35,976 nucleotides of DNA from Sedimenticola sp. (GTDB lineage: Bacteria > Pseudomonadota > Gammaproteobacteria > Chromatiales > Chromatiaceae), in NCBI GenBank assembly GCA_026992075.1, contig JALXAM010000069.1:1-35976 (forward strand), given 5' to 3'. Positions within the stretch are counted from its first letter, which is position 1. Each line of letters begins with the position of its first letter. A model generated the notes under the pieces. It was not told the DNA's origin, ran no database searches, and worked only from the letters and a program-made list of their open reading frames with translations. Shown piece by piece: positions 6,285-6,948 of the stretch. The translations under genes were made by a program, and so were the position numbers.

Positions 6285-6694
6285 ATGCCCACCATTCTGC
6301 TACTCTTTGGCTGGAGGCTGTTTTTCTACGCCAACGAAGGTAACGAACCCATCCATGGGGATCTCGAAAAATTGCCGTCCAAGCAATTTTTCTCCAAGCA
6401 AACCGAAAACGCGGTTTCCGGTTTGCTTCATTTTCAATCACTTGCGTGATTGAAAATGGCGGGACTTCCATATCCCGCACGGGCACCTCGAATTTTTCGA
6501 GGTGCCCCCATGTTCATTGCCAAAAAGGCGACATGGAATGCAAATTCTGGCTCAACACGGAAACATTCGATATCGAAGAAGCCTACGCCTACGGCTTGAC
6601 ACCCAAAGCCCGGAAACAGATACGGCGCATCATTTTTGAACACTTCGATTACATTGTTGAGCAGTGGGAAGTTTTTCAGGCAAGTCAGTCATGA
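6285..6694 (+). pseudogene. DUF4160 family gene split by a hairpin-array insertion
   Basis: The N-terminal part starts at ATG 6285 (MPTILLLFGWRLFFYANEGN, then EPIH) and the C-terminal part resumes at 6509 (HVHCQKGDMECKFWL and on to the TGA at 6692-6694). Joined at the repeated CAT codon (6354-6356 and 6509-6511) they give one ordinary DUF4160 protein of about 85 residues with the family's NEGNEP-x-HVH motif. The 155 bases between are not a multiple of three and bring a TGA at 6447-6449, so the full protein cannot be made. A GTG at 6446 opens an 82-codon frame that reads the C-terminal half and ends in a four-base ATGA overlap with the next gene. DUF4160 genes often sit beside DUF2442 genes in putative toxin-antitoxin-like pairs (family knowledge; function unproven). 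Confidence 0.85.
6357..6511. mobile_element. 155-base MITE-like insertion made of five consecutive hairpins
   Basis: The segment interrupts the DUF4160 gene between two CAT triplets, which could be a 3-base target duplication. Its ends are imperfect inverted repeats: 6357-6373 (GGGGATCTCGAAAAATT) and the reverse complement of 6491-6508 (GGGGCACCTCGAAAAATT), differing by one gap and one mismatch. Inside are five back-to-back perfect or near-perfect stems: 6366-6375/6383-6392 (10 bp); 6396-6405/6419-6428 (10 bp, plus an inner 4-bp stem); 6429-6441/6446-6458 (13 bp, TTGC loop); 6459-6464/6473-6478 (6 bp); and 6481-6492/6496-6507 (12 bp). There is no coding capacity. Mobility is inferred from the clean interruption and end repeats; no transposase source is visible in the window. 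Confidence 0.75.
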
Positions 6695-6948
6695 AAAAAT
6701 ATCATTTCGTAAAAGATATTCACTTCAAAGACGGCATGATCCACCTGGTGGTGGATGGTAAAAGCATCAGCCGGAAACTTTCCGAACTCTCCCACAAACT
6801 GGCAGAAGCGTCGGAAAAAGAACTTCTGGATTTTGAAATCTCGCCTTCCGGTTACGGAATACACTGGCCTGCCCTGGATGAAGACATCTCCATCGACGGT
6901 TTGCTCGGCATCACCCACATGCCTGGCTTCAGTCGAAAAAGCGCATAA
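6691..6948 (+). CDS. DUF2442 family protein
   Basis: An 85-residue protein beginning MKKYHFVKDIHFKDGMIHLV, with a DGKSISRKLSEL segment and the family-typical ending GYGIHWPALDEDISIDGLLG. DUF2442 proteins are small alpha/beta proteins, commonly the second gene after DUF4160, and have been proposed as partners in toxin-antitoxin-like modules; the biochemical role is not established. The ATG overlaps the stop of the DUF4160 frame (ATGA at 6691-6694), so translation was probably coupled to the upstream gene. The gene is AT-richer than its neighbours (AAAAAATATCATTTCGTAAA at the start), which fits horizontal acquisition. It ends 11 bases before the fumarase start. Confidence 0.85.
   Translation: MKKYHFVKDIHFKDGMIHLVVDGKSISRKLSELSHKLAEASEKELLDFEISPSGYGIHWPALDEDISIDGLLGITHMPGFSRKSA

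Follow-up and report, generated by a model that had tools for sequence, protein, structure and literature searches.

Introduction

In many bacteria, metabolism, motility and biofilm formation are under the global control of the Csr/Rsm switch. Its sponge RNAs CsrB/CsrC and RsmX/Y/Z are promoter-driven host genes; the origin of these fast-changing RNAs is, to our knowledge, unclear. Repeats of the REP/RAYT, ERIC, BOX and bcr1 types are dispersed, hairpin-forming and mostly intergenic, as is the element described here, and we know of no covarying four-hairpin fold or CsrA loops that they have in common with it.

CsrA/RsmE is described as recognizing an ANGGAX hexaloop seated directly on a stem, with N and X free, and affinity is lower where the N is missing from the loop (PMC4005645); the CsrA SELEX consensus is given as RUACARGGAUGU (PMC7652899). 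Pseudomonas aeruginosa makes an sRNA, RsmW, that binds RsmA with a Kd of 11.5 nM; it is processed out of a 3' UTR, goes unexpressed without the promoter of the upstream gene, and is reported to be conserved in that species but not in other pseudomonads (PMC4950607). The QMITE1 and QMITE2 elements of Coxiella burnetii are MITEs that yield expressed sRNAs; according to that report, the QMITE1 RNA is a very long palindrome, the small QMITE2 forms are REP elements, the duplications measure 2-3 nt and 7-9 bp, and the term 'csr' is absent from the main text (PMC5896051). The element analysed below would likewise be a MITE serving as a source of sRNA, and the QMITEs, as described there, differ from it in their palindrome and REP forms and in the lengths of their duplications. 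Our literature search, judged from the search results alone, found no mobile CsrA-binding element in print.

Results

An insert of 151 bp splits a DUF4160 gene

The window, by which we mean the whole stretch of DNA analysed (35,976 nucleotides), is contig C69 of a Sedimenticola sp. genome of 2.73 Mb in 76 contigs. At window positions 6357-6507 it carries a 151-bp element of the family that we call A, flanked on each side by the 4-bp duplication CCAT (Table 1). The original prediction had placed a 155-base insert at 6357-6511 with CAT on both sides; the insert and the duplication are indeed there, and both need enlarging or trimming by a few bases, since 6508-6511 is the second copy of a repeat that reads CCAT in full (the first lies at 6353-6356). 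Its ends GGGGATCTCGAAAAATT and GGGCACCTCGAAAAATT, both read inwards, are the related inverted repeats described earlier, and the five adjacent stems lie where they had been reported, with 116 of 151 bases paired in our recount against about 110 of 155 before. The folding lies far beyond chance both as DNA (-53.9 kcal/mol against -20.9 +- 3.1 in 200 shuffles) and as RNA (-80 against -40.0 +- 4.2 for shuffles), with no shuffle as good in either case. The chain of hairpins had been seen on the plus strand; the hairpins stand, and the strand does not, the selected molecule being the minus strand (see below), which also folds better in the window element (-85.7 against -76.6 kcal/mol). Read on that strand, the order is P1 (the right end), P2, P3, P4 and P5. 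The window copy is slightly decayed, in that a U.G pair closes both of its CsrA-type loops and its P5 loop is without the A.

Table 1. Features of the interrupted gene and of the element, in window coordinates
Feature	Position	Strand	Remarks
DUF4160 gene, 5' part	6285..6356	+	by reading
Left target-site duplication copy	6353..6356	none	CCAT
Element, family A	6357..6507	minus (RNA strand)	151 bp
Left terminal inverted repeat	6357..6373	+	GGGGATCTCGAAAAATT
Hairpin P5	6359..6395	-	second predicted CsrA-type site; A-tract/U-tract stem
P5 loop, window copy	6377-6381	-	UGGAC; U.G closing pair; leading A absent
Hairpin P4	6396..6428	-	tip AAAC-CGC-GTTT (6407-6417) well conserved
Hairpin P3	6429..6458	-	
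Hairpin P2	6459..6478	-	predicted CsrA-type site; loop AUGGAA (6466-6471); U.G closing pair
Hairpin P1	6481..6507	-	formed by the right inverted repeat pairing with its own complement
Right terminal inverted repeat	6491..6507	-	GGGCACCTCGAAAAATT; matches an IS5-type IS of the same genome (C70:98088) at 16/17 bases of its left end
Right target-site duplication copy	6508..6511	none	CCAT
DUF4160 gene, 3' part (PF13711)	6512..6694	+	Pfam hit

That the insert has split a DUF4160 gene is borne out by the piece after it, which matches positions 15-65 of the PF13711 profile (E 7.6e-12); the piece before it (54 aa, including residues coded by the element) gave no Pfam hit. The next gene is a DUF2442 gene with a full Pfam hit (the two together span window 6285-6948), and DUF4160 and DUF2442 side by side are a frequent pair. 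Upstream of the element lie two large genes that, judged by eye, resemble sucA and sucB. An uninterrupted allele, for which a comparison with sister strains had been suggested, did not appear: a 731-bp stretch searched against the other 14 genomes of the genus gave, down to E ~2.6e-4, matches to the element, with no flank match among the matches listed.

A multi-copy element with IS5-type ends

Searches of its own genome recovered 35 BLAST matches to the element and 41 matches to a covariance model of its structure, some of them cut by contig ends. Seven contigs (C9, C12, C58, C59, C63, C66 and C68) break inside element copies, so the true copy number is probably above the count. Across the genus, 14 of 15 genomes, this one included, have element matches. 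Three families can be told apart by their ends, and the own genome contains all of them: family A has GGGGATCTCGAAAAATT/GGGCACCTCGAAAAATT, family B GGAAGCTCTGATAAAA/GGAAGGTCTGAAAAATT and family C CAGGATGTTGAAAAAG/CAGGCTGTTGAAAA.

For quantification we assembled a first set from the own genome, same-genus genomes and pattern matches in named genomes (it includes at least three records from genomes outside the genus: G096, G064 and G277); of its 76 elements, six truncated or rearranged ones were dropped, leaving 70 full-length copies, 41 of which were kept as non-redundant. An exact 4-bp duplication stands at the fixed boundary in 40/70, where 4.7/70 would be expected with the right flanks shuffled and 7.2 with shuffling within families. 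The left flank reads YTAR in 26/33 copies of family C, 4/10 of family B and 5/27 of family A; thus family C prefers YTAR, family A shows no such preference, and family B is unclear. One pair of copies stands in tandem with TTAG between them, and elsewhere one copy each of families B and A adjoin at a distance of about five bases (G000:C36 ~132923-133223, L023). Plasmids yielded no match to the two element types searched, and viral contigs none to the one exact pattern searched.

The element is thus short, multi-copy, bounded by terminal inverted repeats and flanked by target-site duplications, as MITEs are, and there is no transposase gene within its 151 bp. The family A end pattern led to a candidate helper: it occurs at 28 sites in the own genome, all of them in copies or fragments of the element bar one, at C70:98088, which belongs to an IS5-family transposase gene (domains PF05598 and PF01609; product 60.1% identical over 263 aa to WP_238823616.1, annotated as 'IS5 family transposase'). 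Compared with the right end of family A, this IS matches in 16/17 positions at its left end (GGGCACCTCTAAAAATT) and 14/17 at its right end (GGGCGCCTCTAAAAATG). A family A copy sits inside the transposase gene itself, with the duplication CACA. Because a copy lies within an IS5-family gene whose own end matches that of the element at 16/17 positions, we regard the element as almost certainly an IS5-type MITE, and an IS5-type transposase supplied in trans would account for its ends. It resembles IS5-group MITEs in being short, lacking a transposase gene, having inverted ends and a 4-bp duplication, sharing a host with an IS5-family transposase and, in family C, preferring YTAR; it is unlike them in having a covarying RNA core that is common to different terminal repeats and occurs in more than one class. 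No second copy of the helper was found in the own genome, and the one found is interrupted. Without its insert this IS (L010:633-2043, G000:C70) measures ~1.26 kb, and its own flanks are without a clean 4-bp duplication.

The many copies, their common inverted ends, the 40/70 exact duplications and the IS5-family helper candidate together uphold the earlier proposal of a mobile element. The alternative raised with it, a trap of palindromes inserted one by one, is refuted by the same hairpin order in all 70 full-length copies found by sequence, and likewise in those found by the model.

Distribution within and beyond the class

Among named genomes, an exact core pattern matched 34 stretches: 30 belong to Sedimenticola sp. 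MAGs, and the others to records labelled 'Gammaproteobacteria bacterium' (two), Chromatiales (one) and Hyphomicrobiales (one). The last is a partial copy (L095, JALVRJ010000248.1) in a MAG from the same sample series as the Sedimenticola MAGs, and it may reflect a binning error or a transfer. The structural model R1 reached further, with matches in 54/146 genomes of the host family, 69/369 genomes of the class (53/272 genera) and 45/398 genomes of a phylum-wide sample, 41 of the latter lying outside the class in six families; copy counts from these searches are lower bounds, at most 25 (family), 10 (class) and 9 (phylum) candidates having been scored per genome. In one genome (G173) the P2-P5 unit forms tandem arrays with a 124-bp period (L222 and L223): the first (G173:C1:2568700-2569900) carries seven CsrA-type motifs on one strand within ~370 bases, and the second (G173:C1:1594200-1595200) five. 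By their layout, these arrays look like a CsrB-like sponge. Two tandem units also occur on the minus strand in a genome outside the class (L224, G536:C102:11000-12000, positions 538-666).

Covariation and strand asymmetry point to a selected RNA

We examined the fold in alignments of increasing breadth. A P2-P5 structure of 45 pairs, set by hand on the family B and C sequences themselves, is paired in 93.4% of cells across 24 copies of these two families, and pairing drops to 38-51% when the partner columns are slid by 1 to 3; the same copies hold 88 double-change cells against 23 +- 4 expected. This alignment (A3) comprises 24 of the 27 B and C rows (L111, L091 and L092 were left out) and, like A1 and A2, was made with MAFFT without structure, so the covariation in B and C is independent of the model. 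An alignment of 74 wide matches (A4: 59 strong ones and 15 weak ones, with E above 1e-6 and on the other strand) is 95.7% paired, with double changes at all 45/45 pairs and 767 double-change cells against 180 +- 12 when shuffled, and 19 copies from genomes outside the class are 96.0% paired, with double changes at 37/45 pairs; both of these alignments were fitted to model R1 and hence lean towards its structure. RNAalifold, run on a mixed-family alignment, recovered 35 pairs but little of P1 and P5, since the outer hairpins of the three families do not line up with one another.

Single mismatches within otherwise Watson-Crick helices reveal the strand. Read on the minus strand, 68 distinct first-set copies hold 112 G.U against 12 A.C, a count to which related copies and one P4 column contribute many. 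A further test, with one copy from each of 71 genomes outside the genus (L164 and the second L175 match were left out), gave 57 G.U against 7 A.C, and by element 38 lean one way, 2 the opposite way and 31 are even; in this test the strand was chosen by a model that itself scores G.U. Since G.T and A.C would be equal if palindromic DNA were selected, the selected molecule is RNA-like and corresponds to the minus strand; we reject a function of the plus strand on account of this asymmetry and of the better fold of the minus strand. The stems differ between families while the loop letters are constant. We consider it highly probable that the RNA fold is under selection.

Hairpin tips that match the CsrA recognition rule

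On the minus strand the tip of P2 reads C-A-N-G-G-A-N-G. Among the 41 non-redundant copies the fixed letters are present in 38/41 (C), 41/41 (A), 40/41 (G), 39/41 (G), 41/41 (A) and 41/41 (G), while the N columns vary (A24 G14 T3 and T19 A15 C4 G3). At P5, 27/27 copies of families B and C carry CANGGANG. The family A tip reads CNGGANG; GGA is present in 14/14 of these, and the leading A is missing from 11/14. These first-set results, like those on the strand, are independent of the model.

Outside the genus we scored 72 copies from 72 genomes, namely 19 from outside the class and 53 strong matches (the 59 less five of the same genus and the second L175 match). P2 carries CANGGANG in 58 and GGA in 68; P5 has C(N)NGGANG in 68, the full CANGGANG in 43 and GGA in 70. 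The 14/72 misses at P2 comprise seven five-base CAGGANG loops, one lost closing G, four losses of GGA, and two copies (L187 and L202) in which the hexaloop is kept and the closing pair is compensated. The genomes of L145, L156 and L174 are also in the first set (L145 is the same copy as L081); each of the three fits at both loops, and without them the counts are P2 55/69 with GGA in 65, and P5 65 with GGA in 67. The 19 copies from outside the class keep CANGGANG in P2 of 16 and P5 of 18. As the model was trained on copies with GGA loops, loop and strand counts in the copies that it found are partly favoured by the search; the two eight-base loops should, by our reckoning, contribute little to scores that reach 70 bits or higher. 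For comparison, flanking DNA contains the motif at a rate of 3.6e-4 per position; P3-P4 never show it, and the antisense strands do so four times.

As these loop letters match the published rule, we predict the P2 and P5 tips to be recognition loops for CsrA/RsmA/RsmE. A(N)GGAN loops on stems are what a sponge would present, and there are two of them per unit and seven in the tandem array. We accordingly judge binding of CsrA by the element RNA to be probable from the letters of its loops. Conserved tips of another kind are found at P4 (AAA-YCRC-R-TTT) and P3 (..AAG), and CsrA does not account for them.

Relation to RsmW and other sponge RNAs

The nearest described family is RsmW (RF02809, clan CL00106), which aligns over 1-124 of its 124 positions to one of the two units in L224 (42.7 bits, E 5.6e-4 to 7.3e-4) and over the full model to another copy, L160 (44.6 bits, E 3.8e-4). 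These matches, in 2/56 sources scanned, stay below the RsmW gathering score of 52, and we have therefore filed the element as a sponge-like MITE rather than as a member of RF02809. In the printed alignment, each hairpin of L224 falls on its counterpart in RsmW, and GGA stands in the loops of the first and the last. RsmV appeared twice, weakly (E 1 and 0.48). Identity with a known Rfam family was rejected, as none reached gathering level over the element in the window or in the E-value scans of the 56 sources.

The element thus shares with RsmW four hairpins in the same order with GGA at the first and last tips, and, going by the RsmW report, a patchy spread and a dependence on an upstream promoter of the kind that a read-through element would show. 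It differs in that RsmW is a single host gene with seven GGA motifs, three of them in outer loops, and the available sections of its description do not mention mobility (PMC4950607). With CsrB/CsrC and RsmX/Y/Z it has in common a chain of hairpins with GGA in the loops, which in the G173 array amounts to seven motifs in ~370 bases; unlike them, it has two sites per unit, dispersed mobile copies and no promoter in the two stretches scanned.

Co-occurrence with csrA and prospects of transcription

Over residues 1-58 the host CsrA can be aligned to chain 1y00_A, 'Carbon storage regulator', which we take to be the E. coli protein, and the two differ at few positions. In the phylum sample csrA is present in 220/398 genomes, and carriers of the element make up 43/220 of those with csrA against 2/178 of those without (Fisher 3.6e-10, a statistic that ignores phylogeny, with most carriers coming from one family, f207, so that the 43 are not independent events). 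The two carriers without csrA (G728 and G779) are 74% and 69% complete, and two other genomes of their genus (G568 and G703) have it. In the class sample, where csrA is common (313/369), the association is not significant: a csrA hit is absent from 8/69 carriers and 48/300 others (p 0.46), or, among genomes at least 90% complete, from 3/62 (G247, G277 and G349) and 31/252 (p 0.11).

Scans of two stretches, around the window copy and in the G173 array L222, showed no promoter-like site. Given this, and given that copies show no orientation bias relative to the upstream gene (detailed below), most single copies may be silent, and a benefit to the host from each copy is unlikely, the copies not being oriented to the upstream gene. 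Selection probably acts on lineages that are still jumping or on a few transcribed copies.

Discussion

We favour, with a probability of roughly 0.7, the reading that a MITE lineage has been spreading an RsmW-like RNA predicted to bind CsrA. The element would be a non-autonomous IS5-type transposon whose interior is a conserved four-hairpin RNA (P2-P5) lying beside P1 of the right terminal repeat; an IS5-family transposase acting in trans would cut at the inverted ends and insert it with a 4-bp duplication. As neither scanned stretch holds a promoter, we propose that transcription running on from a neighbour would produce the RNA. The minus-strand transcript would fold into the chain, offer the A(N)GGAN loops at the P2 and P5 tips to CsrA, and tie it up in the manner of RsmW or CsrB, with tandem copies serving as multi-site sponges; whether such an RNA would have a net sponge effect rather than a local effect in cis appears evenly balanced on our analysis. 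A regulatory RNA was among the possibilities raised by the original prediction, and it is favoured by covariation, strand asymmetry and the conserved CsrA-type loops, that is, by comparative evidence rather than by expression. The sharing of one RNA core by families with different terminal repeats likewise argues that the RNA matters whichever transposase moves the element.

The best-surviving competitor, which we hold to be unlikely, is an RNA conserved for another partner or purpose, be it as a terminator, an insulator, a means of tuning transposition or a ligand for some protein other than CsrA; the GGA loops would then be incidental. It would account for the conservation of the P3 and P4 tips, and the A-tract/U-tract hairpin of P5 would suit it. 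The occurrence of one core with different terminal-repeat types agrees with it as well, in that the core then has a role of its own. For a terminator in particular, a single terminator-like pattern was found (P2, minus strand) against 0.9 in shuffles, which is chance level. The reading further sits poorly with two of the four loops fitting the CsrA consensus, with variable letters at just the N positions, inside and outside the class, with the end-to-end alignment of RsmW, and with csrA being present in 43/45 carriers of the phylum sample.

Less probable again is an ordinary MITE whose palindromes are kept at the DNA level, through cruciforms, protein-binding palindromes or template-switch correction without selection on RNA. 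The spread of such an element would be explained by its inverted ends, the 4-bp duplications and the candidate IS5 helper, and its outer ends need complementarity for transposition anyway; nor do the copies show an orientation bias relative to genes (45/87 with respect to the upstream gene, p 0.83, from the 39 + 48 copies with an ORF on both sides among 46 + 64 with enough flank, using a simple ORF-calling script). Double-stranded palindromes, however, are strandless, yet the wobble mismatches favour one strand by about 9 to 1, and stems that vary around loop letters constant across families are the opposite of what correction alone would leave. A single-strand transposon of the IS200/IS605 or REP/RAYT type, with the hairpins as transposase substrate, would fit a hairpin-rich and strand-specific element, and single-stranded folding had been suggested as its mode of movement, but we consider it very improbable: those elements insert without duplication, whereas the exact 4-bp duplications, the terminal inverted repeats and the resemblance of one end to that of an IS5 transposase gene of the DDE type point to a double-strand DDE transposase.

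Returning to a MITE lineage that spreads a predicted CsrA-binding RNA, the sequence evidence suggests that the element may be able to tamper with the CsrA regulator. A MITE family with CsrA-type sites in 69/369 genomes of the class would readily supply new sponges; it would turn the origin of Csr sRNAs into a testable question and be a case of a bacterial transposon acting on a global regulator that binds RNA. More generally, a selected, strand-specific RNA can lie within short hairpin repeats of the kind often dismissed as junk. We put forward only tentatively, at somewhat less than even odds, the wider proposition that a class-crossing transposon lineage persists through its own CsrA/RsmA-sequestering RNA, with terminal repeats swapped, tandem sponges formed in some hosts and host regulators such as RsmW domesticated from it; if true, the global Csr switch would have been repeatedly rewired or parasitised by jumping sponge genes.

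As a separate observation, one copy lies close to a known structured RNA: at L163:1398-1445, on the minus strand, a Guanidine-II riboswitch (RF01068, above gathering) stands ~55 bases from the element core.
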